This document shows, piece by piece, positions 3,268 to 34,246 of a DNA stretch of 53,577 nucleotides (positions are counted from its first letter, which is position 1; each line of letters starts with the position of its first letter). The stretch comes from Clostridiaceae bacterium (lineage in GTDB: Bacteria; Bacillota; Clostridia; Saccharofermentanales; Saccharofermentanaceae). The stretch spans positions 1 through 53,577 of the forward strand of contig DUPM01000051.1 of assembly GCA_012838315.1 (NCBI GenBank), written 5' to 3'. The position numbers and the translations under genes are program-made. The notes beneath the pieces were generated by a model. That model was not told the origin of the DNA. It worked only from the letters and a program-made list of their open reading frames with translations, and did no database searches.

Positions 3268-4581
3268 ATGTCAGTTTATAAGATACGTGGCGGAACTCCG
3301 CTTCAAGGCGAAGTTTCAGTAAGTGGCAGCAAGAACGCCGTTTTGGGAATTTTAGCTGCCTCCATGCTTCTTGATGGAGCCTGTATTTTAGAAAATGTAC
3401 CAGATATTGCCGATGTTCAGGCCATGCTTGAAATCTGTGAGACATTAGGTGCGGTTATTACTCCGCTTGGCGGAGGTACATATAAAATTGATCCGACGAA
3501 TATTTCAACATACGAAGCGACGCATGCAAAAGTTAAAAATATTCGTGCGTCATATTATCTGCTCGGCGCACTACTGTCTCGATTTAAGAGGGCAACGATG
3601 CATATGCCGGGCGGATGTAATTTCGGAACGCGCCCGATTGATTTGCACTTGAAAGGTTTTTCGAAATTGGGCGCTCGTGGCACGGACGTTTCAGATTTAC
3701 GAGATGGCACGATTCGAATCATTGCAGATCGGCTTCGAGGATCACACATTTTTCTGGATGTGGTCAGCGTCGGCGCTACGATTAATATTATGTTGGCAGC
3801 GACTCGCGCAGAGGGTTTGACGACGATAGAGAATGCCGCAAAGGAACCTCATATAGTTGACGTAGCGAACTTTTTGAATGCGATGGGCGCTAACATAAAG
3901 GGTGCAGGTACCGATACCATTCGAATTAAGGGTGTTCCGGTCTTACCCGGTGGTTATTCGTACTCCATCATTCCGGACCAGATTGAGGCCGGAACCTATA
4001 TGATAGCAGCGGCGATGACGCGCGGTGATGTGACGGTGAAAAATTTGATTCCGAAGCATATGGAGCCGCTGACAGCAAAGCTGATGGAAATGGGTTTTGA
4101 TATATTGGAAGGCGACGATTCTATTCGAGTCAGTATAGAGGAGTGTAGGCCTATCGAACCGGTTAATTTTAAAACTATGCCGTATCCCGGTTTTCCGACG
4201 GATTTGCAGCCACAGGCAACAGCATTACTTTGTTTGGCGAAGGGGATGGGTCGTATGCATGAAAATGTATGGGACAATCGTTTTCAATATATCAGCGAGC
4301 TTCAGACGATGGGTGCGAATATTTCTGTGATTGGTCGAGTGGCATTGGTCAGCGGCCCGAGTTTTCTGCATGGTGCGAATGTCGTCGCGATGGATTTGAG
4401 AGCTGGAGCGGCAATGGTATTAGCAGGTTTAGTTGCGACTGGAGAGACGGTCATTTCGTCGGCCTACCGCATTGATCGTGGTTACGAGCATATCGTCGAA
4501 AAACTGACAGCAATGGGCGCTAAGATTGAGCGTGTTGAAGAAGATGAGTCTTCTTGCCAGAGACCCTTAGTCGAAGTGTGA
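3268..4581 (+). CDS. murA: UDP-N-acetylglucosamine 1-carboxyvinyltransferase
   Basis: MurA transfers enolpyruvate from PEP to UDP-GlcNAc, the first committed step of peptidoglycan synthesis, in the cytoplasm. The 437-residue protein has the normal length. It shows K22/N23 (GSKNAVLG), R93 (NIRASYYLLG) and the catalytic Cys C117 in MPGGCNFGTRPIDLH, the residue attacked by fosfomycin. The frame is open back to 3229 inside walK, but ATG 3268 has an AGGGGG site at 3255-3260 and begins with the canonical family N terminus. Its place directly after a WalK-like kinase, where Bacilli have yycH/yycI, is unusual and puts a cell-wall enzyme under the same transcript as its likely regulator. Confidence 0.95.
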   Translation: MSVYKIRGGTPLQGEVSVSGSKNAVLGILAASMLLDGACILENVPDIADVQAMLEICETLGAVITPLGGGTYKIDPTNISTYEATHAKVKNIRASYYLLGALLSRFKRATMHMPGGCNFGTRPIDLHLKGFSKLGARGTDVSDLRDGTIRIIADRLRGSHIFLDVVSVGATINIMLAATRAEGLTTIENAAKEPHIVDVANFLNAMGANIKGAGTDTIRIKGVPVLPGGYSYSIIPDQIEAGTYMIAAAMTRGDVTVKNLIPKHMEPLTAKLMEMGFDILEGDDSIRVSIEECRPIEPVNFKTMPYPGFPTDLQPQATALLCLAKGMGRMHENVWDNRFQYISELQTMGANISVIGRVALVSGPSFLHGANVVAMDLRAGAAMVLAGLVATGETVISSAYRIDRGYEHIVEKLTAMGAKIERVEEDESSCQRPLVEV

Positions 4582-6053: not shown

Positions 6054-6647
6054 TTATGCGCGTTGTGAAAGAAAATTTCTCATGATGGTTTCTCCAACTG
6101 TGGTTAATATAGACTCCGGGTGGAATTGGATACCGAATACCGGAGCCGTCTTGTGATGAACGGCCATGATGGTCTGATCGGGCGCGAGTGCAGTGACCAC
6201 TAATTCATCCGGCATTTTTTGAGTGTTTGCGGCAAGAGAGTGATAACGTGCGACTTCGATAATCTCAGGAAGTCCGTGAAACAGGGGACAAAGGCTTTCC
6301 GCTCTCTCTTCATCCATTAAGATATGTACCGGGCGCTTCTTTCCGTGGACCAATTCAAGCGCGTGAATGATTTCTCCTCCGAAGGCCTCAACAATGGCTT
6401 GGTGTCCGAGGCAGATTCCAAGTATCGGTATTTTGCCGGATAAGCGCTTTATAAGGTCGATGGACACTCCGGCATCACGGGGGTAACCCGGTCCGGGAGA
6501 AATGATGATATGAGACGGAGAGAGTGCCTCAATATCTTCGATACTCAGTGCATCATTTCGAATGACTTTAATGTTTGGGTCAATACTTCCGACCAACTGG
6601 TAAACGTTGTATACAAATGAATCGTAATTATCAATCAGTAAGATCAT
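6054..6647 (-). CDS. trpG: Anthranilate synthase component II (glutamine amidotransferase)
   Basis: Supplies ammonia from glutamine to TrpE for anthranilate synthesis. The class I amidotransferase fold of 197 residues shows SPGPGYPRDAG, the nucleophile C79 in LGICLGHQAI and the His-Glu pair in FHPESI. The start overlaps the trpE stop (ATGA), which fits a 1:1 complex made by coupled translation. It is the last gene of the trp operon and converges on rlmH, with about 100 bases between and no clear U-tract terminator. A role shared with 4-amino-4-deoxychorismate synthesis (PabA) is possible, since some bacteria use one amidotransferase for both. Confidence 0.93.
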   Translation of the reverse strand: MILLIDNYDSFVYNVYQLVGSIDPNIKVIRNDALSIEDIEALSPSHIIISPGPGYPRDAGVSIDLIKRLSGKIPILGICLGHQAIVEAFGGEIIHALELVHGKKRPVHILMDEERAESLCPLFHGLPEIIEVARYHSLAANTQKMPDELVVTALAPDQTIMAVHHKTAPVFGIQFHPESILTTVGETIMRNFLSQRA

Positions 6648-8116
6648 CGCATACCTCCGGATTTTTCAAGTGCTGCGAAAAGTGCGCGCGCTTTATTCAT
6701 TGATTCCTCGTATTCCTTCTCGGCATCGGAGTCGGCAACAATACCTGCTCCGGCCTGAACGTGAATTTTTTGATCGCGAATTAACGCGGTTCTGATCGTT
6801 ATACATGTGTCCATATCGCCATCAAATCCGAAGTAGCCAACCGCACCGCCGTAAAGGCCGCGTCGCAAGGGCTCGAGTTCGTCAATAATCTCCATAGCTC
6901 GGATTTTGGGTGCGCCTGAAAGCGTTCCGGCGGGGAGTAGTGATGAGAGGACATCCACCGGACTGAAAGGCTCGCGCAGTTTTCCAAAAACGTTCGTGAC
7001 GATATGCATGACATGCGAGTACTTTTCGACGTGACCGATATTTTTGGCCTCAACGGTTCCGATTTCGGAGACTTTACCGACATCGTTTCTGGCCAAGTCG
7101 ACTAACATGTAATGCTCAGAAATTTCTTTTTCATCGCGGAGCAACTCTTCCTCGAGTGCTTGATCTTCTTCTGCGGTTTTGCCGCGCGGGCGTGTTCCCG
7201 CGATGGGGCAGGTCTCGATGATGTCGTTATTGATTCGAACGAGCATTTCCGGAGAAGAGCCGACAATTGCGGCGTCTTCGAGTTGGAAGTAGAACATGTA
7301 CGGGGACGGGTTTACGGTACGAAGCGCACGATAGACCGGCAGGGCATCTCCGAAATAATCGGAGCTGAATCGCTGAGACAAGACAACCTGAAAGATGTCC
7401 CCATCGCGGATGTATGCCTTGGCGCGTTCAACGCTCTCACAATAGCGATCATGTCCGCTGTGTGATTGAAAGTCTAACTCGGTCGGATGGACGCGAGCGG
7501 GCTTGATGGGTGACGTATCGTGGATACGAGCGATGATCTCAGAAATCTTCGATACCGCCTTGGTATAACCATCCACACCCTCTTCAGAAAATACGTTGAC
7601 AATCACTGCGGCCTCGTTCTTTAAGTGGTCGAAAACGATCACTTGCTCCGGAGCCATCAAGTGACAGTCCGGCATATCAATATTATCCGGATTGTTGTCC
7701 GGGAGGTTCTCGGCGTAACGAACGAAGTCGTATCCAAAGTAACCGACCAGCCCACAATAGAAATGATCAATGTAATCAAAGCGACCGGAAACTGATCGCG
7801 CTAAGATGTTTTTTAGTTGCTCGATTGGTTGATTCCCGAGGTTCTCTGCGGGGTAGTCGCGACTGCCGACACGGTAGTTGGAGACCCCTTTTTTGACGGT
7901 GTATTCAATCATCGGATTGGAGCCCATAATGGAGTACCTGGCCCAGCGTTGGCCATTTACGACACTCTCAAGAAGAAAGCTTTTAGCGCCGGTAGCAAAA
8001 CGTCTGAAAAGCGAAATAGGCGTGAATAAATCCGCAGGAATGCGCTGAACAATCGGGATGATACGCTTCTCTTGAAGCATTGCTGAAAACTGAGAATATG
8101 ATGGTTCAATCAACAT
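6644..8116 (-). CDS. trpE: Anthranilate synthase component I
   Basis: Converts chorismate and ammonia to anthranilate, the entry step of tryptophan synthesis. The 490-residue protein has the N-terminal FLLES motif associated with tryptophan feedback binding and the C-terminal chorismate-binding core, including LLPAGTLSGAPKIRAMEI and AGAGIVADSDAEKEYEE. Its start overlaps the end of trpA by seven bases, so it is clearly part of the same transcript. Its place near the end of the operon, after trpBA, is unusual: in most Bacillota trpE leads. The FLLES motif argues for TrpE rather than PabB. Confidence 0.95.
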   Translation of the reverse strand: MLIEPSYSQFSAMLQEKRIIPIVQRIPADLFTPISLFRRFATGAKSFLLESVVNGQRWARYSIMGSNPMIEYTVKKGVSNYRVGSRDYPAENLGNQPIEQLKNILARSVSGRFDYIDHFYCGLVGYFGYDFVRYAENLPDNNPDNIDMPDCHLMAPEQVIVFDHLKNEAAVIVNVFSEEGVDGYTKAVSKISEIIARIHDTSPIKPARVHPTELDFQSHSGHDRYCESVERAKAYIRDGDIFQVVLSQRFSSDYFGDALPVYRALRTVNPSPYMFYFQLEDAAIVGSSPEMLVRINNDIIETCPIAGTRPRGKTAEEDQALEEELLRDEKEISEHYMLVDLARNDVGKVSEIGTVEAKNIGHVEKYSHVMHIVTNVFGKLREPFSPVDVLSSLLPAGTLSGAPKIRAMEIIDELEPLRRGLYGGAVGYFGFDGDMDTCITIRTALIRDQKIHVQAGAGIVADSDAEKEYEESMNKARALFAALEKSGGMR

Positions 8117-8925
8117 ATAAAATCCTCTGTAAAGGTCTTCACTACGGCACCGAGCTTTTCGGCGATCTCAGTTTCACTGAGATGATCATGAACGGCCGAC
8201 TCAATCTGTTTAACCAGAGCTGAGCCGACGATGATACCGTCGCAGCATTTTTCCATAGCTCTTTTTTGCTCCGGAGTCGATATCCCGAATCCGAGACATT
8301 TAGGAATATCTGAATAATTGTTGAGCGAGTTCATATATTCTTGAAAATGTGTTTCAAATGTTTGCCTCTCGCCGGTGACTCCTGATGTGGATACGCAATA
8401 GAGGAAGCCTTTGGCTTCGGGAACAATCGTGCGAATTCGATCAAAAGATGTTGGAGTGACCATTGAGATAAGATAGATGCCGTACCGGTCTGCTGTTGGT
8501 TCAAGTTCGTCTCTTTCTTCAAACGGGAGATCTGGAATAATAAGTCCGGAAATGCCATTATCCTTACAGGCGGATAAAAACTTATCCTTGCCGTAAACAA
8601 AGACGGAGTTGTAGTAGAGCAAAAGCAGCACAGGAATATCCGGATAATCTGTCGTGACCTTACGACAAACATCGAAAACGTCCGTTAAGCGCGTGCCGGC
8701 GGCAAGCGCGCGTTCGTCCGCTCGCATAATCACAGGACCGTCAGCGGATGGGTCGGAGTAGGGGACACCAAATTCAATGACATCGGCGCCGTTTTCGATC
8801 ATTGCCTTTGCTATTAGGTATGTTGCGTTTGTCGAAGGGTCGCCGGCTGTAATAAATGGAATAAAGGCTTTCTTATTATCGGCGCGCAATTTCTGAAAGC
8901 GTATGTCAATCGGATTATTATTCAC
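8110..8925 (-). CDS. trpA: Tryptophan synthase alpha subunit
   Basis: Cleaves indole-3-glycerol phosphate to indole and glyceraldehyde 3-phosphate and channels indole to TrpB. The 271-residue TIM barrel has both catalytic acids, E51 in [11 protein letters not shown] and D62 in SADGPVI, and the phosphate-binding GFGISTPEQ segment. It overlaps the trpB end by eight bases and the trpE start by seven, the tight packing expected of an alpha2-beta2 complex made from one mRNA. Confidence 0.96.
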
Positions 8926-12140: not shown

Positions 12141-12177
12141 AAAAAAGCCCTTGTCCCTAAATGCAGGGACAAGAGCT
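12141..12177 (-). terminator. Regulated terminator of the trp T-box
   Basis: On the minus strand AAGCTCTTGTCCCT pairs with AGGGACAAGGGCTT around a short loop and runs into six T residues. It is 31 bases before the trpD start and is mutually exclusive with the antiterminator formed by the T-box sequence. Confidence 0.92.
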
Positions 12178-12425
12178 TACACTCCTGCGGTACCACCTTG
12201 CTTGACCGTGCGTAAAGCATGGTCCACTCTAATCTCGTACTATCATACGATTCCGCCTGATAACGGGCCGGATCCCCGTCGGTGCCTACTCGAATAAATC
12301 TTTCGGACCGCCCTCGTAAGTCCATTCGTCAGAAACCAACATGCCGCGATTCCACCATCCACGACTCTCTATAATACCAGTCACTCCGAGTACTACTCTT
12401 ACTCAACAGTTTCTTATAAATTAAC
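12141..12425 (-). ncRNA. T-box leader, tryptophan-specific (specifier UGG)
   Basis: On the minus strand the leader has a Stem I base (GTAAG near 12401 pairing with CTTAC at 12317-12321). Next to it is the specifier region GAATGGA, with UGG at 12322-12324 followed by A, as T-boxes prefer a purine there. The conserved T-box AAGGTGGTACCGC lies at 12187-12199, and a terminator follows at 12141-12177. Uncharged tRNA-Trp should pair with UGG and, through its NCCA end, with the UGGN bulge to favour the antiterminator and allow transcription of trpDCBAEG. The T-box motif and class are clear; Stem I details are read by eye. Confidence 0.93.
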
Positions 12426-12514: not shown

Positions 12515-14734
12515 CTAATTAATGGTTTCGGCGAGATAGTTGCTAATTCGACTATGTATAATTTCTGCAGTCTCATCTGCCGATTTTTCGCCGAAAAGAT
12601 AGTGTTGAAGCTCCTCTTCTACGATAGCATATATGAACCAATCTTGGATGTAAAAACCATCTGCAGAAAGAATTATCTCACGGAATTGGCTTTCCCACGA
12701 CCCATCCGGCGGATAGGGTCGCAGAATCGCATCCGCTGAGTCGGAACTTGTCGAGCCGTGCGACGTAATTGTGTTAAGGGATTCTTCGTATCGGTTTGCT
12801 TGAAATGAATTAAGTACTGAATCCAGAGCACTGAGTCGAACCGGAAGTTCGCCCATCGACAGGGCCTCTCCCATATTCTGAGCAATGTCGGAGAGTAAAA
12901 AATCGATATATGCTTTGCCTCCATCCGGATAATATGTGTTCTTGTGGACACCAAAGCCCATCGATGCGGATAGAACTGCAGGCGTACGCTCACCTAGAGG
13001 ATAACCGATAACCGCGAAATTCTCGCTCATCATTTCTGCAGTTTGAACATAATAATCGATATTACTGAAGGTATCAAATTTGAGCAAACGTTCTCGCTTC
13101 ATAGTATCTGAACTAAGGGAAAACGAGTTGAAAATGGAGCGAAGTTCATCGGAATCAAAATGAGAAATGCCATTCTCACGATCGATAAAAAAGAACTGTG
13201 CAATATCGGAAAAGGAGTGTTTGTAGATATCTCCGAATAGAGATAATTGGAAGCTGTCAGCATATATCTTGAAACCATCGAGTGTGAAATCATCGATTTC
13301 AGAAAGATGACTTTCGTAGATTATGAAGCCCGAGACACTGACAAAAGGCGTGAGAAAGTATTGGCTTTCCCCTTCGCGAGTCGCAGTAAGAGCATTTGTC
13401 GCGAAGGTGTCGGGTTCATTATCAATCGCAGAATCAATAATCGGGGCAATATTCATCAAAATATCGCTGTCAGCAAGATTCGATAATTCGCCGACAGGGA
13501 GATAGAAGAGGTCAGGAGGGCTTTCGCCGAGAACATCCAAGAGCATTTTATTGCGCGCATTACTGATAAAAACCGAAAATGATTCATTCTCGGTTTGTTC
13601 GGCCATGTAGTCTTCATAGTAAACGATCTGTATTTCGTAATCAGACTGGCTTTGATTGAAAAGAAATGCCAGAAACTCAGGATCTGACGAAGAATCATTG
13701 ATAGCGACACCCATTTGTAATACTTTGCGATCCGTTGTCTTGTTGCCTAATGATATTTCAATAAGCCCTTCAACCGAATTATAGCTGTAATTGTACTCTC
13801 CCCATACAAGAAATGAGTCATCAGAAATAAGTGTCAACTCGTTGATAAGCATTAGGTTAGTTTCGGCCGTGTCTAGTAATTGCTCGAATTTTGATTCGGA
13901 AGGTATATATCGAGAGATACTATTTGAAGAAATAAGGTAGATTGCCCGACTCTCAGAAGAAGATGAGCTAACAATGCTCTCAGGGAAAATTTCCTCATCT
14001 GGAGAAAAGGTCGCAATGACATGTCGCGTATTTTCGGAGAGATTGATTTGGCTGAATGTTCGTTGATTGTTCTTTCTAGCTTCGAGTGCAAATATCTTTC
14101 CGTCAGGTGAATAGGCGACGCAATAAATACCCGAGTTGTCGGCTTTTTGGCTGATAATTTCACCGGTATTCATATCCAAATCCAGGATGGCATTATCAAT
14201 GAATATTTTCGCCGTGAATTCCGAAGTGGCAACTGCATCTATCAGGTTATGATCCTGAGCCGCATCTATCTTTCCGGAAGTGATGACACTGGAGCTTCCG
14301 GAAATGGCGTAATATATGTATTTGTATCGAAGGCTCTCCTTATCTAAAACCTCTGAAATCAGCAATAGATTTGTCCCGCTATAAGAGCTTGATAATAGTG
14401 GTGTGCCCTCCACACCTTCGATTAGAATTGTCGAGGTGACTTTTCCGGAGAGGTCAAGAGAAGAGATAAACACAGAGTTTTGGGTATACCAGATGATAGC
14501 AATGCCATTATCTGTAGCATGAACCGATAGGAGATTCGGCGAACCGGGAGAGGCTTGAAGAAGGCTTGGATCGATACTCTGAAAAATGGATTGGCCCGTA
14601 ATAATAAGTCGGTCTTGTGCTGGCAATTCGGATTTCAAAATCTCTGCTTTAGGTATCTTGCCACATGCAAAGAGAGGTGAAATGACGAGGAGAATAGCAA
14701 GAACGATGGTGGCGAAGGAACGGTAGCTTTTCAT
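12515..14734 (-). CDS. Large lipoprotein with a solute-binding-protein-like C-terminal half
   Basis: A 739-residue exported lipoprotein. The N terminus has a signal peptide with lipobox LFAC and lipidated C24. Residues about 45-380 are made of repeating short beta-rich units (values, timestamps-like YSPDGKIFAL segments) that resemble a beta-propeller. Residues about 385-739 read like a family 1 extracellular solute-binding protein: SPPDLFYLPVGELSNLADSD, then FLTPFVSVSGFIIYES. It overlaps the ATPase gene by four bases (ATGA), so it belongs to the transporter cassette. No usual importer permeases (MalFG type) are nearby, so it more likely senses or binds a ligand at the membrane for the FtsX-type transporter. 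Function unknown; the domain readings are by eye. Confidence 0.75.
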   Translation of the reverse strand: MKSYRSFATIVLAILLVISPLFACGKIPKAEILKSELPAQDRLIITGQSIFQSIDPSLLQASPGSPNLLSVHATDNGIAIIWYTQNSVFISSLDLSGKVTSTILIEGVEGTPLLSSSYSGTNLLLISEVLDKESLRYKYIYYAISGSSSVITSGKIDAAQDHNLIDAVATSEFTAKIFIDNAILDLDMNTGEIISQKADNSGIYCVAYSPDGKIFALEARKNNQRTFSQINLSENTRHVIATFSPDEEIFPESIVSSSSSESRAIYLISSNSISRYIPSESKFEQLLDTAETNLMLINELTLISDDSFLVWGEYNYSYNSVEGLIEISLGNKTTDRKVLQMGVAINDSSSDPEFLAFLFNQSQSDYEIQIVYYEDYMAEQTENESFSVFISNARNKMLLDVLGESPPDLFYLPVGELSNLADSDILMNIAPIIDSAIDNEPDTFATNALTATREGESQYFLTPFVSVSGFIIYESHLSEIDDFTLDGFKIYADSFQLSLFGDIYKHSFSDIAQFFFIDRENGISHFDSDELRSIFNSFSLSSDTMKRERLLKFDTFSNIDYYVQTAEMMSENFAVIGYPLGERTPAVLSASMGFGVHKNTYYPDGGKAYIDFLLSDIAQNMGEALSMGELPVRLSALDSVLNSFQANRYEESLNTITSHGSTSSDSADAILRPYPPDGSWESQFREIILSADGFYIQDWFIYAIVEEELQHYLFGEKSADETAEIIHSRISNYLAETIN

Positions 14735-15420
14735 AATTTACAAACTCCATATTCGATGGTGCCATCATCAATGTGCAATTGGCGGTCGGCGAGCTCGGCG
14801 ACTTCGGGATCGTGTGTCACGATGACGATGGTCTTGCCTTCTTCGTGTATGCTCTTTATCAAAGCCATGACGTCATGCTTTGTCTTACGATCAAGTGCGC
14901 CGGTGGGCTCGTCAGCCAGAATGAGTTCCGGGTCATTTATTAGCGCCCGGGCTATGGCGACGCGCTGCTTTTGACCGCCTGACATCTGATTGACCTTGCG
15001 GCGAAGAAGATCCTTTATGCCTAATTTCTCGCTGAGCACACGAATACGATTTCGGCGATCCTTTCTCGGTACTTTCGCAAAAATTAATGGCAGCTCGATA
15101 TTCTCATACGCGGAGCGATACGGAATTAAGGCGAAGTCTTGCATGATAAAACCGATTTTTTGATTTCGCATCTTGGCCATCTCAGTTGCACTTAGTTTAT
15201 GAGAAATCGCTGTCTCGAAAAACATAGATCCTTCTGAGTAGTGTTCAAGAAAACCAAGTATATGCAACAGCGTGGATTTTCCGGATCCCGATACGCCGGT
15301 GATGGCGATCATTTCTCCCTTTTTTATCTCAAGGTCAACGCTGCGAAGCGCTTCGACGGAAACTTTTCGAGCTGGATGATACGTTTTTCGGATGCCTTTG
15401 AGTTCGATGTATGTCGTCAT
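14731..15420 (-). CDS. ABC transporter ATP-binding protein, LolD/MacB type
   Basis: A 229-residue ATPase with Walker A G42-S49 (GVSGSGKS), a Q-loop in GFIMQDFALI, signature [15 protein letters not shown], Walker B LILADEP and the H-loop VTHD. The sequence type (LolD/MacB/lactococcin-972-group) serves FtsX-like permeases, not classical importers. The frame extends upstream to 15513 into the permease gene, but ATG 15420 has AGAAAGGA nine bases before it and begins MTTYIELKGIRKTY. It follows permease 2 by four bases and overlaps the lipoprotein gene. Confidence 0.93.
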   Translation of the reverse strand: MTTYIELKGIRKTYHPARKVSVEALRSVDLEIKKGEMIAITGVSGSGKSTLLHILGFLEHYSEGSMFFETAISHKLSATEMAKMRNQKIGFIMQDFALIPYRSAYENIELPLIFAKVPRKDRRNRIRVLSEKLGIKDLLRRKVNQMSGGQKQRVAIARALINDPELILADEPTGALDRKTKHDVMALIKSIHEEGKTIVIVTHDPEVAELADRQLHIDDGTIEYGVCKL

Positions 15421-15424
15421 ATTA

Positions 15425-16606
15425 TTAGTCCTTTCTAAACAGTTCGACCGGAGACTTGCGTATAGAAGAAACATAAAAAGGCAGAACACCGACAAGGAAT
15501 ACGGCGGCAACAAAACCGAAAGTGATTAGAACATAACTCCAGCGAAAACTAACGTCGATCATATAGTTAATTTCAGTGCCGATTTGACGGTAAAGCCAGA
15601 TCATCGCACAAGAAAAACCAAAAAGCAAAGCGAAGAATTTTGGAAAAACAACGGCTTGGACGCAATTCTTCCATGGGATACCGGAAAGATACCAGACCGA
15701 CATTTCTTTTCTGCGGCTGATCAGGGACAAGTATGTGCCTGCCAAGAGAACGGATAGAGAGAGAAAGGTGACGGCTAATGCGTCTGCGAAGATGTCGAAG
15801 AGCACTTTGTCGTTTTCGACCCAATAACGTTCGACTAGCGCCTCTCCGCTATGCACATATGATTTCGATCTGACGATATCGACGAGCGCATCGTTAATTT
15901 CGTTCTGAGAATAGTTGTCTTCGGGTGTGATAACAAGGGTGCTCGAAAGTTCGCCAATTGCCTTGTTACCATCAATATCGACTAGGTTGTAAAGAATGCC
16001 GGTGTTTGGGGTCGCTGTAAATAAGTGTCCCAAAGAGAATTTCGCATAGGAGGTTGGGAAAGCAAGCACGTTTGGATCTTTAAGAAACCCGGCTACTCTG
16101 ATTTGAACGGTTCGAACTTCAGTTAAATTGTCGAACACGAGGTCGAAGTTGCTAAAACTCATCGTAATTTCATCACCCACATCAAAAATCAAATCGTATT
16201 CGATGGGTAATAGAATTTCGTTTGTTCCTGACGGATTTGGTTGCGAGCCTTTTGCAAGATCGTAACGGATTGATTTTAGAGAGGGGGTGTCATAAATAAC
16301 GGCAGTGCACGATACTTTATCACTGCTTAGTGATCCGATTCGATACTGCTCGACGTCCTTTACTCCCTCTAAATTCTGGACTACAGCAAGCTCAGACATT
16401 AGCCCCGGAACATCATCTTCTTGATATATGTAAAAAACCTTCTCGTTGAGACCGCTTTCAAAAAAAACACGACTTAAGTATGTAATGCGGTCGACACCGC
16501 GAATAAATTGATAGGCCGTCGTGCAAATAACAAATGAAAAGAGAGTTAGAATGATGGTCGAAAGCCAGTCGCGTCGAATATTCCGCAAGACAAATGAATC
16601 AAACAT
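15425..16606 (-). CDS. FtsX/MacB-type ABC permease (second of a pair)
   Basis: A 393-residue membrane protein with MacB topology: transmembrane helix about 14-34, an extracellular region of about 220 residues, then three helices (near 280-305, 325-345 and 357-380). The segment RRKEMSVWYLSGIPW before the third helix matches the cytoplasmic coupling region of FtsX-family permeases. It overlaps the first permease by eight bases and precedes the ATPase by four, so the two permeases and the ATPase should form one heterodimeric transporter. Such transporters act in peptide export, lipoprotein handling or mechanotransmission rather than simple uptake. Confidence 0.85.
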   Translation of the reverse strand: MFDSFVLRNIRRDWLSTIILTLFSFVICTTAYQFIRGVDRITYLSRVFFESGLNEKVFYIYQEDDVPGLMSELAVVQNLEGVKDVEQYRIGSLSSDKVSCTAVIYDTPSLKSIRYDLAKGSQPNPSGTNEILLPIEYDLIFDVGDEITMSFSNFDLVFDNLTEVRTVQIRVAGFLKDPNVLAFPTSYAKFSLGHLFTATPNTGILYNLVDIDGNKAIGELSSTLVITPEDNYSQNEINDALVDIVRSKSYVHSGEALVERYWVENDKVLFDIFADALAVTFLSLSVLLAGTYLSLISRRKEMSVWYLSGIPWKNCVQAVVFPKFFALLFGFSCAMIWLYRQIGTEINYMIDVSFRWSYVLITFGFVAAVFLVGVLPFYVSSIRKSPVELFRKD

Positions 16607-17762
16607 TACTAATATGCCCCCTTGTTTGAATGAATTGACTTGCTTTGTTGTACGTCAAATTGAGAACTACGCATAAACACAGAATGCCTACAAATTGAGC
16701 ACCGGAAAGAGCAAAATCTGAAAATGTTAATTTTGATAGCCATCGGTTGGCTTGAGGAAATAATCTTGAGAAAAATATTAGTCCTAATCCAACAAGAAAA
16801 GATGTAATAATTGAAAAGAAAAGTAGGCACATCGATTGAGTGACGACATATAAAGGAGTAGCTCCAACCATTCTCGAGACGGACATTTCATGATTTCGAG
16901 ATTGGAGAAGATATTGATACAAAAAGGCAATACTTAAGGCGCACGCGAAGAGAATCGTATTATTTATTTGCACGGAGTCTCGATGGCTCTGAATATCGCT
17001 CTCACTACAAACGTAAGGCATCTCGAGATCTCGCACGTGAAGGCATTGACCGACGATTTTCAAAAACGAATCTTCTTGACTTTTATTCAAAGGCTCAGAG
17101 AATTGAATCGAGAGGTACTCACAAGATGAGGTTAATTCAAAAAAGCGTTCGTAAGCGACAATCACGCCTGCATGAGAGTAAGAGGTAAAGTAAACTGAGC
17201 TTATCGGGGTTAATGGGGTTGAGCCATTTACGATAATTTCACCAATAATTTCTCGTGTAGATAATTGCCTCCTTATTTGCGCCGAATTTGATATGCTGTT
17301 TACGACAGAGGTACTCAACATATTTGCAGTAGTAAATGTAAGCATACACTCGTTCTGAGTATCAACGATAACAGTATTGCCATCTTTTACCCGTAAATTG
17401 TCTTCCAGACTTGGCAAATCTGGATAGAAGGTCATCATAGTGACCGGTTCTTCTATGTTATTTGGCAATAGTTCTCCGTATTCAATGTCAACGGTGTCCG
17501 TCAGAAAACACTCTTGCATGGGTAATTGCAGAAGATTCAGTTCGATGATAAGTGAATTCAGTTGCTGCTCTGAAGCGTTTTCAGGATAAAAAACATAGCG
17601 AGACTGGGTAAAGTTTTGGGATTCGAATCCCAAATTGACACCAGATTGATATTGAAGAATGATAGAAGTAAAAAATAAGCCGCCACATGCTATACAAAGG
17701 ACAAGAAATGAGACGATTCGATAGCGAATAAACTGAGTCGTTGCTTTTATCCCGTCTCTCAT
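16599..17762 (-). CDS. FtsX/MacB-type ABC permease (first of a pair)
   Basis: A 387-residue membrane protein with the same layout as its partner: helix about 16-37, a large extracellular domain, then three C-terminal helices near 275-290, 305-335 and 355-375. NHEMSVSRMVGATPLYV is the FtsX-family coupling segment. The longest frame begins with GTG 17768, but that codon overlaps the AGGGG ribosome site; ATG 17762 is five bases after it and is chosen. The two permeases together (about 780 residues, eight helices) resemble a split version of the single integral membrane protein of lactococcin 972-type loci; that comparison is inference. Confidence 0.82.
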   Translation of the reverse strand: MRDGIKATTQFIRYRIVSFLVLCIACGGLFFTSIILQYQSGVNLGFESQNFTQSRYVFYPENASEQQLNSLIIELNLLQLPMQECFLTDTVDIEYGELLPNNIEEPVTMMTFYPDLPSLEDNLRVKDGNTVIVDTQNECMLTFTTANMLSTSVVNSISNSAQIRRQLSTREIIGEIIVNGSTPLTPISSVYFTSYSHAGVIVAYERFFELTSSCEYLSIQFSEPLNKSQEDSFLKIVGQCLHVRDLEMPYVCSESDIQSHRDSVQINNTILFACALSIAFLYQYLLQSRNHEMSVSRMVGATPLYVVTQSMCLLFFSIITSFLVGLGLIFFSRLFPQANRWLSKLTFSDFALSGAQFVGILCLCVVLNLTYNKASQFIQTRGHISNV

Positions 17763-17850
17763 GGTCACCCCTGGATATTTTAAATATAGTTAATTTAATA
17801 TAGAATATTAATAGAGAAAGAGCAAATATATTAATGCCCTGAGTCTTTTA

Positions 17851-17876
17851 GGGCGCATCAAATATTTGACGCGCCC
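17851..17876. repeat. 26-bp near-perfect palindrome between secreted-protein and permease genes
   Basis: Arms GGGCGC and GCGCCC surround TCAAATATTTGA with one G.T-type mismatch pair, giving a long hairpin in the cassette mRNA. No T-run follows on either strand, so it is not a standard terminator. The 3' arm can also pair with AGGGCAT just downstream on the minus strand (17837-17843), an alternative fold. It probably sets the ratio of secreted protein to transporter by processing or attenuation. Confidence 0.7.
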
Positions 17877-17916
17877 GTGGATCAGAGTTTTAGAAACGAA
17901 TGCTTTTGATCATAAA

Positions 17917-18369
17917 CTATTTATAATCCGGATTGGTGACTGTTTGAGTTATAGTACCTGTGTAATATCTATTACCATGAATACCCATAGATCTCCAACC
18001 ATCATTGCAATCGGTGTAGTGATATGTAGTAATTTGACCGGTACTGTCCGATGTCTTTGATATTTTGTAATCAGGGAAACTGAGTGCATATGCTTTCGTC
18101 TCAGTTTTTGATTTAGTTGACGCCGAGAGCCATTCCCCGTCTGCATTTTGCACATTGACGCTAACGGTTATGACTCTTTTTTTCAATTTGCCGTTGATAT
18201 CTGTAATTATTGATTCTCCCGAACTTTTTCCGGCTATAGGGTTCTTGTTTTTCAAACAGCTGACAATGTTTTTTGTGTAAGCGATTGTTGTGTCTGCGGC
18301 GAGAACCGTTGCAAATGAAAGTCCGGCCATCAGCACAATACCCAAAAGAACCGATGTAATTCTCTTCAT
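17917..18369 (-). CDS. Small secreted protein heading the ABC cassette
   Basis: A 150-residue protein with a clear Sec signal peptide (basic MKR, hydrophobic 6-22, cleavage after A24 or A25). The mature part of about 125 residues is polar and Thr/Ser/Lys-rich, with two cysteines (C38, C121) that could form one disulfide, and ends in an aromatic stretch with YHYTDCNDGW and NRYYTGTITQT. No family was recognised. TTG 18384 overlaps the GGAGGT site; ATG 18369 lies seven bases after it and is used. It is transcribed first, 154 bases before the FtsX-type permeases. Together these suggest a Sec-exported bacteriocin-like or signal protein served by the transporter; that role is inference. Confidence 0.75.
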   Translation of the reverse strand: MKRITSVLLGIVLMAGLSFATVLAADTTIAYTKNIVSCLKNKNPIAGKSSGESIITDINGKLKKRVITVSVNVQNADGEWLSASTKSKTETKAYALSFPDYKISKTSDSTGQITTYHYTDCNDGWRSMGIHGNRYYTGTITQTVTNPDYK

Positions 18370-18394
18370 GATAAATACCTCCAATATAATAATT

Positions 18395-18424
18395 AGTAAA
18401 ATTTTACAAAAAAAACAAAGTCAA
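18395..18424 (-). promoter_or_regulatory. Probable promoter of the secreted-protein cassette, with a palindromic operator-like site
   Basis: On the minus strand TTGACT (18419-18424) and TTTACT (18395-18400) are 18 bases apart. A perfect 12-bp palindrome GTAAAATTTTAC (18396-18407) covers the -10 side, so a regulator bound there would block transcription. The -10 is imperfect. Confidence 0.5.
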
Positions 18425-18590
18425 GAGAAATTGAAAAAAACGGTTTATTGACCATTGCACTTATAGCGATGCAGTTAGTTTCAGGCTATAATTATTAGTA
18501 GAAATAATAACTTTTTTGTTGAGGTCGATACAGAATCGCGAGAATGAAAACTGTGATCTGTAGAGCTCTTTTTCGGAGGCGAGAATACTC

Positions 18591-32418: not shown

Positions 32419-33128
32419 TTATTTACCCGGCGATAGACCTATTGGACGGCAAGTGTGTTCGTCTGAAGCAAGGACTTTATGATCAAGTCACGAGATATTC
32501 GGATCAGCCCGAGGATGTGGCACAGGATTTTAAGTCCCAAGGAGCAAAGTGGATTCACATAGTGGATCTCAATGCGGCGAAGACCGGGGTGCCGACCAAT
32601 CACGACATAATTGGAAGAATTGCTGCAAATACCGGTCTTAAAATACAGACCGGCGGCGGTATTCGGAATATGGAGACACTCACTCGACTCATTGAGGATT
32701 ACGGAGTATCAAGATGTGTGTTAGGAACGTCTGCAATGCGTGATCGCGCTTTTACTGAGGCGGCATTGGCGAAGTATGCCAATCAAATCGCCATTGGTAT
32801 CGATGCTCATGACGGCGATGTCGCAGTTGACGGATGGACAAACCGCTCCGGCATTAGGGCAACGGTATTTGCGCTTCAAATGAAGTCTCTCGGTGCTCAG
32901 ATCGTCATTTATACAGACATTTCGCGTGATGGCATGTTGATCGGTCCGGCTACGGCGCAAACAGCCGAAATGGTTGCAGTGACGGGAATGGATGTCATTG
33001 CATCCGGTGGGATTGGCTCACCGGAAGATATTATCGATATCAAAAAAACGGGTTGTGTCGGTGTTATCGTCGGCAAAGCGATCTATGAAGGGAAAGTGAG
33101 GTTGTCCGAATGCATGCAAAACGAATAA
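32415..33128 (+). CDS. hisA: ProFAR isomerase HisA, possible HisA/TrpF bifunctional enzyme
   Basis: A (beta/alpha)8 barrel of 237 residues that performs the Amadori isomerisation of ProFAR. It has D8 in [17 protein letters not shown], the phosphate loop QTGGGIRN, the second acid in [14 protein letters not shown], and [16 protein letters not shown] 32415 forms ATGA with the hisH stop; the frame open to 32397 is rejected. The trp operon here lacks trpF, whose reaction is chemically identical. Some bacteria, notably actinobacterial PriA, use one HisA-type enzyme for both. Whether this one does cannot be decided from the sequence alone. Confidence 0.95.
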
Positions 33129-34246
33129 TTCCATGTCTTGACGTCAAAGACGGGCGTGTCGTCAAAGGAGTCAATTTTGTATCTCTAAGAGACGCAGGAG
33201 ACCCGGTCGAAATTGCGAAGGTTTATAATCTCTCGGGTGCGGATGAGTTGGTTTTTTTGGACATTTCGGCGACCCTCGAAGGACGCGGTACAATGATTGA
33301 TATGGTGACGCGTGTTGCCAACGAAGTCTTTATTCCTTTCACTGTCGGCGGCGGTATACGCACGACAGAGGATATTCGTGAGATACTGAATGCCGGAGCG
33401 GACAAGGTATCTCTAAATTCTGCTGCGGTAAATGATCGATCGCTGGTTAAGACGGCCTCTGATAAGTTTGGAGCGCAGTGCATTGTCGTTGCGATCGATG
33501 TCAAGAAGAGAGAAGTAACCTCTGAGTTTCCCAGCGGTTATGAAGTGGTTATTGCAGGAGGCACCAAACCGACTGGTTTGGATGCCGTTGAATGGGCGAG
33601 AGAAGCAGAGATGCTTGGAGCCGGAGAAATTCTTTTGACCAGTATGGATCGCGATGGAACGAAAAGTGGCTTTGACAATGTCATCACGGCGTTGATTTCA
33701 GAAGCGGTCGGAATACCTGTCATTGCATCGGGTGGTGCAGGAAAGATGTCCGATTTTTATGACGGAATCGTCGACGGTAAAGCAGACGCGGTTTTAGCGG
33801 CTAGCCTTTTTCACTTCGGGGAGATTGAGATTTCTGAATTAAAGAATTATCTGCAATCTCGAGGCGTTCCTGTGCGGCATGTCGGCAAAGCAAACGCTTT
33901 GTGGCAACGCTTTAAGAAAGACCACGACGGCTTGGTTCCGGCGATTGTCGTTGACGGAGATAAAAAGGACGTCTTGATGCTGGCATATATGGATTACGAA
34001 GCGTTTGACTTGACGCTCTCTACGGGCTTCATGCATTATCACTCCCGAAGTCGCGGGCGCCTTTGGAAAAAGGGAGAGACATCCGGACACACCCAAAAGG
34101 TCATCGATTACAAAATCGATTGTGACCGTGATACACTACTTTTTTATATAGAACAGAAAGGCGTGGCGTGCCATACCGGAAATCGGACCTGTTTCTTTTC
34201 GGGGCCGGACGACGTTTTATCTGATTCTCAAACTGAGGAGGAATAA
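33110..34246 (+). CDS. hisF: HisF-HisI fusion: IGP synthase cyclase with PRA-CH
   Basis: A 378-residue fusion. Residues 1 to about 250 are HisF, which makes imidazole glycerol phosphate and AICAR: D11 in [47 protein letters not shown] and ASGGAGK. Residues about 265-372 are HisI, the phosphoribosyl-AMP cyclohydrolase: [34 protein letters not shown], and the zinc-binding DCDRDTLLF...[12 protein letters not shown] region. The frame is continuous across the join. HisI is normally separate or fused to HisE; fusion to HisF is uncommon. The start overlaps hisA by 19 bases, with GAGG 10 bases upstream. Confidence 0.95.

Follow-up and report, generated by a model that had tools for sequence, protein, structure and literature searches.

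Lactococcin 972 (Lcn972)-type loci, such as the lcl operon and scbABC, are recognized by the family models PF09683/TIGR01653, TIGR01654 and TIGR03608; in one operon they encode a small Sec-secreted protein, placed first, together with an FtsX-like permease composed of two halves of four transmembrane segments (4-TM) each and an ATP-binding cassette (ABC) ATPase. The Lcn972-like streptococcin B locus has the same layout, and its B and C genes were untested in that study (PMC11796350). YknWXYZ, a MacB-type four-component pump, combines a MacB-group ATPase and an FtsX-type permease with an extracellular accessory and defends Bacillus against a self-made secreted toxin, SDP (PMC4887032). Here we analyzed a 53,577-nucleotide stretch of a Clostridiaceae genome (contig DUPM01000051.1; hereafter the window) and focused on a minus-strand unit at 12515–18369, in which genes for a small Sec-exported protein, two FtsX-type permeases (permease 1 and permease 2), an ATPase and a lipoprotein follow one another in that order (Table 1). 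The cassette is genuine, conserved and apparently undescribed; literature searches returned no description of such a five-gene cassette, and PADLOC gave only generic ATPase matches. We propose with a probability of about 0.5 that the cassette encodes a Sec-secreted protein bacteriocin and a MacB-group complex for self-protection, working like Lcn972 loci or like YknWXYZ against SDP.

An earlier sequence-only reading of this DNA had described one operon of five genes, the last four tightly packed, and all five open reading frames (ORFs) and their junctions were recovered as described: the permease genes overlap by eight bases, permease 2 and the ATPase are separated by a four-base gap and the ATPase and lipoprotein genes overlap by four bases. 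The small gene is set apart from permease 1 by a 148-base gap that holds a strong hairpin. The same five genes stand in this order in L028, L029, L030 (which has a tandem pair of differing copies), L033 and L042, all in genomes of the same family. L031 has the same order with the small gene interrupted by a stop codon, and L035, a second copy in the window's own genome at a contig edge, contains permease 1 to lipoprotein only. Homologues of permease 2 were found in 29 of the 115 genomes of the host's family (profile A1, E ≤ 1e-6) and, at a stricter E ≤ 1e-20, in only 2 genomes outside it among 391 sampled from the class. Named carriers include the Clostridiaceae metagenome-assembled genomes AS06rmzACSIP_487 and _271 and Mageeibacillus sp. 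UBA6976.

The association of the small gene with the ABC genes was assessed across 36 distinct cassettes (37 rows, one being a second fragment of L030). An automated rule placed a small Sec-type ORF immediately upstream of 19 of them, and inspection by eye added L029, L093 and L126; applied to 16 other FtsX-type ABC operons, taken as controls from the genome of the window and from its relatives, the same signal-peptide rule detected none. The earlier proposal had hinged on the genes travelling together, and homologues in relatives are indeed co-located. In a sister species (G001), the flanks are kept and the stretch matching 12811–18375 of the window is gone, leaving at one end the ribosome-binding site and first codons of the small gene and at the other roughly the final 96 codons of the lipoprotein gene; here a single deletion removed the unit. 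Its second cassette (G001:C97) has a stop codon in the small gene, and L079, L080 and L087 keep the ABC genes with no recognizable small gene.

The small protein was described earlier as Sec-exported and of no recognized family, and this description held: by inspection its signal peptide ends in TVLA, followed by ADT, leaving a mature part of about 126 amino acids (aa). Homologous small proteins form several clusters, which are only partly linked by sequence comparison. No cassette protein scanned matched PF09683/TIGR01653, a PF09683 scan of the 115 family genomes gave no match at the cassette, and profile comparison of the small-protein clusters with Lcn972 gave nothing below E 0.02. A by-eye likeness of the small proteins of L090, L126 and L034 to the Lcn972 core motif was likewise not supported by profile comparison and was dropped. 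When the closest complete pairs are compared, no component has diverged more than the small protein, with 53% identity for L033/L042 (73, 73, 92 and 81% for the other parts) and 48% for L091/L092 (79, 80, 84 and 66%).

Both permeases are of the FtsX type and have the architecture of the MacB/LolD group (type VII), with four transmembrane (TM) segments and a large extracellular domain between TM1 and TM2. The Pfam FtsX match of permease 1 is weak, at 21.4 bits (below the cut-off) in one scan and 25.9 bits (over it) in another; permease 2 of the window had no Pfam FtsX match, and four of eight relatives' permease 2 proteins did. Neither window permease matched TIGR01654 or DUF1430, and they are two proteins of 389 and 393 aa, not one fused protein of ~700 aa; one relative's permease 2 matched TIGR01654 weakly (4e-4). 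Aligned to the fused Lcn972-type permease, permease 1 scored best on the N-terminal half (47.1 versus 36.1) and permease 2 on the C-terminal half (50.5 versus 40.4), with reversed controls at 17–24, in a comparison where both permeases and both halves are related FtsX folds. The earlier description of two separately encoded 4-TM permeases and an ATPase gene of its own was right, and the comparison with a split permease is thus structurally apt. An ABC match on a Eubacterium eligens plasmid was rejected, being a two-component-linked single-permease system and not this cassette.

The ATPase scored similarly on three NCBIfam models, MacB (225 bits), L_ocin_972_ABC (TIGR03608, 220.6 bits, second best) and LolD (210 bits), reaching neither the TIGR03608 cut-off of 254.85 nor the equivalog cut-offs of MacB and LolD. 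Profiles separated the alternatives more clearly, with 284 bits for the MacB group versus 202 bits for Lcn972, and the ATPase belongs to the MacB/LolD group. A branch with 100/100 support sets the Lcn972 ATPases apart in the ATPase tree; with MacB-group references included, the cassette ATPases group together, though weakly (66/71), and the main body of this group is supported at 94/99. Because the Lcn972 family models fail and the tree separates the two groups, we file the cassette with the MacB group. The earlier note had called the locus a relative of lactococcin 972: as a resemblance of layout, with a Sec-exported product encoded first and permease and ATPase after it, this stands, whereas as family membership it fails on the small-protein, permease and ATPase models and on the tree. 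Unlike Lcn972-type loci, the cassette has its permease split into two genes, an ATPase from another clade, a small protein without detectable similarity and an additional lipoprotein. The window's own genome also carries a separate Lcn972-type locus at 3904–6997 of L116 (G000:C41:2000-13208), with a TIGR01654-like permease and a TIGR03608 ATPase scoring 266.7 bits, above the cut-off. The small gene that precedes them looks like lactococcin 972 by eye but has no Pfam match, and a single frameshift, reflecting either a pseudogene or an assembly error, parts its signal peptide from the mature region.

The lipobox cysteine of the lipoprotein, Cys24, is invariant in 10 relatives. In the predicted structure (mean predicted local distance difference test score (pLDDT) of 67, with about a fifth, residues 468–586 and 645–676, below 50), residues 31–331 form a six-bladed propeller whose best match is an NHL propeller (Z 19.0, rmsd 3.3 over 256 residues). 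The remainder matched the solute-binding protein (SBP) family SBP_bac_1 (PF01547; 31.5 bits, Pfam cut-off 26), as found in carbohydrate importers, and among solved structures the sugar-binding protein CbpC (7x0o; profile match 1.3e-13) is its closest relative; structural alignment (VIA-align) covers the propeller only, the SBP domain being assigned by sequence and Foldseek. The C-terminal domain thus belongs to the same family as CbpC and Lmo0181 (5f7v), but the cassette lipoprotein differs from both in its N-terminal propeller, its FtsX-type ABC partner and the absence of sugar permeases: the operon encodes no 6-TM MalF/MalG-type permease, only the 4-TM FtsX-type pair. Nor does it encode a membrane-fusion adaptor of the MacA/YknX kind, the fifth gene being the lipoprotein, whereas YknWXYZ has such an adaptor (YknX), a Yip1 protein (YknW) and a single permease, and the SDP toxin that it counters is a processed 42-aa peptide encoded elsewhere. 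Relatives of the lipoprotein (about 700–900 aa) are greatly expanded in the family, with matches in 55 of 98 genomes searched and many copies in each, and some adjoin 6-TM permeases of the sugar-importer kind (L037 and L039); the lipoprotein was probably recruited from this expanded propeller/SBP family. It is also optional, missing from the otherwise complete cassettes L077, L083, L085 and L117, so the core consists of the small protein, two permeases and the ATPase. Of the earlier suggestion that a solute-binding-like lipoprotein had been added, perhaps as a sensor or immunity component, the solute-binding part was borne out, with a domain of carbohydrate type, and constancy was not. In two related cassettes, a BspA-type leucine-rich-repeat protein is encoded between permease 2 and the lipoprotein (L078, 6364–7071; L079, 7217–7912).

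The hairpin region of the window has a folding energy of −31.7 kcal/mol (z −4.5). Hairpins of unrelated sequence occupy the same place in L028, L030, L033 and L042, giving five cassettes with the window; cassettes with short gaps between the small gene and permease have no room for one. Some cassettes have further neighbours. L033 and L042 are adjoined by agrB-, agrC- and agrA-like genes and AgrD-like peptides, L080 by agrB with a response-regulator-like and a sensor-like gene, and helix-turn-helix (HTH) regulators occur near several relatives. Three of the 22 agrB genes in 23 genomes lie beside a cassette, against a rough expectation from lengths of about 0.1; since L033 and L042 are close paralogues, these count as two events. 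Between the tandem cassettes of L030 (G009:C35:24000-38375), a gene for a CPBP (Rce1-like) intramembrane protease (7559–8320) overlaps the lipoprotein gene, and CPBP proteases include known bacteriocin self-immunity proteins. In L042 (G024:C11), the AgrB ORF at 6466–7236 reads through, with no change of frame, to an AgrD-like tail (..PGCLTIYHQPKRPRK) and looks like an AgrB–AgrD fusion. A second secreted family of about 205 aa, with no family match, is encoded upstream of the cassettes of L090 (7184–7798) and L096 (7568–8179), adjacent to an HTH protein with a TM segment, and is truncated in L079; a likeness to geobacillin 26 was supported by no search and was dropped.

Table 1 Features of the cassette in the window
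Feature	Position	Strand	Basis
Small Sec-exported protein, candidate bacteriocin, 150 aa	17917..18369	-	ORF; L028 and L029 have homologues upstream of the corresponding ABC genes
Intercistronic hairpin between small gene and permease 1, 11 bp stem, 4-nt loop	17851..17876	-	Folding
Permease 1, FtsX-type, 389 aa, 4 TM, large extracellular domain, GTG start	16599..17768	-	Pfam FtsX
Permease 2, FtsX-type, 393 aa, 4 TM, diagnostic member of the cassette family	15425..16606	-	Profile comparison: homologous to permease 1
ABC ATPase, MacB/LolD group, 229 aa from its ATG	14731..15420	-	Family models and tree
Lipoprotein, 739 aa: lipobox Cys24, six-bladed beta-propeller (31-331), SBP_bac_1-type domain (about 350-739)	12515..14734	-	Pfam and model
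Predicted operon promoter region and ribosome-binding site	18370..18590	-	Ribosome-binding site and first codons of the small gene are the remnant in the sister species at this end

The cassette is flanked by a divergent Mbeg1-like gene (18591) on one side and, immediately 3′, by the T-box leader of the trp operon (12162–12415, minus strand; RF00230, 96.8 bits) on the other. Elsewhere in the window, a His_biosynth (HisA/HisF-type) domain precedes a PRA-CH (HisI) domain in one ORF at 33110–34243, which looks like a fusion of steps in histidine biosynthesis.

On the bacteriocin reading, the small protein would be secreted by Sec, cleaved by signal peptidase to about 126 residues and then attack the envelope of related bacteria. 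The two permeases may form a heterodimer powered by the MacB-group ATPase. Because the small protein has its own Sec signal, this complex more likely acts outside than exports from the cytoplasm; it would protect the producer by stripping or releasing the small protein from its own membrane or lipid target through mechanotransmission, as proposed for MacB-type pumps. The lipoprotein, dispensable in some lineages, could be an outside accessory that captures the small protein or its target-bound form, standing where the adaptor of MacB-type pumps would be, and the hairpin may let more secreted protein than transporter be made. Antibacterial activity, self-protection, the role of the lipoprotein and the effect of the hairpin are the parts of this reading that we infer. 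Its support is circumstantial: the layout, the pattern of gain and loss, the divergence of the small protein in close pairs, the hairpin, some agr neighbours and one CPBP protease are what would be expected of a bacteriocin with dedicated self-protection.

Several observations weigh against this reading. The small protein matched nothing convincing in Pfam or NCBIfam, including any bacteriocin family, and AlphaFold modelling of its mature part together with two homologues gave an unusable result (pLDDT 38) and so no structure prediction. Fast divergence is common among small secreted proteins and is not seen in distant pairs, as for the window and L028 (45% for the small protein, 31–35% for the permeases). 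No agrB/AgrB was found in the window's own genome. Permease 2 matched nothing in plasmid and phage records, giving no sign of the mobility usual for bacteriocins. The best relatives of the lipoprotein bind sugars, its SBP domain being related to beta-glucooligosaccharide-binding proteins.

Other functions were also weighed. Several FtsX-type machines use extracellular partners, and with its FtsX-type permeases and MacB/LolD-group ATPase the cassette could be an envelope-maintenance or hydrolase-control complex like FtsEX or LolCDE, in which the small protein is a partner or activator and not antibacterial. We consider this unlikely: the cassette is patchily distributed (29/115), was lost whole from the sister species and occurs in L030 as two dissimilar tandem copies, and the partner diverges fast in close pairs. 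Somewhat more doubtful still is a role in signalling, with the small protein as a secreted signal or precursor read by the lipoprotein and ABC complex, as Bce-type transporters sense peptides: agr modules and HTH regulators near several relatives and an SBP domain on an exposed lipoprotein fit such a role, but the roughly 90–126 residues left by cleavage would make a large signal, the regulators accompany only some cassettes and are absent from the window's operon, and the lipoprotein is optional.

That optional lipoprotein also speaks against uptake of glycans or oligosaccharides, in which the secreted protein would bind a polysaccharide and pass it to the lipoprotein. The relationship of the SBP domain to CbpC and the sugar-importer-type 6-TM permeases beside lipoprotein relatives in L037 and L039 point towards uptake; the cassette, however, has no 6-TM sugar permease, and to our knowledge no FtsX-type ABC system is known to import sugars, making this improbable. 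We regard it as equally improbable that the cassette is a true, strongly diverged lactococcin 972 member with its permease split in two. The shared layout, the N- and C-half preferences of the permeases, one relative's TIGR01654 match and the second rank of TIGR03608 among ATPase models are outweighed by an ATPase below the cut-off, outside the Lcn972 clade and better matched by the MacB-group profile, and by small proteins that match neither PF09683/TIGR01653 nor Lcn972 profiles. Taken against these alternatives, the bacteriocin reading is still the best.

Tentatively, and at a little under even odds, the cassette may represent a distinct and so far undescribed class of Sec-exported protein bacteriocins with its centre in the Clostridia family that contains Mageeibacillus, with self-protection by a heterodimeric MacB-group ABC complex and a lipoprotein derived from carbohydrate-binding proteins. 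Mining with PF09683, TIGR01653 or TIGR01654 misses this class. The cassette would be of value for finding bacteriocins that have so far gone unseen and for testing what the ABC genes do in Lcn972-like loci, and with L116 in the same genome both kinds can be compared within one organism. It also couples a carbohydrate-type binding lipoprotein to an FtsX-type ABC pair, in place of the adaptor of MacB-type pumps.

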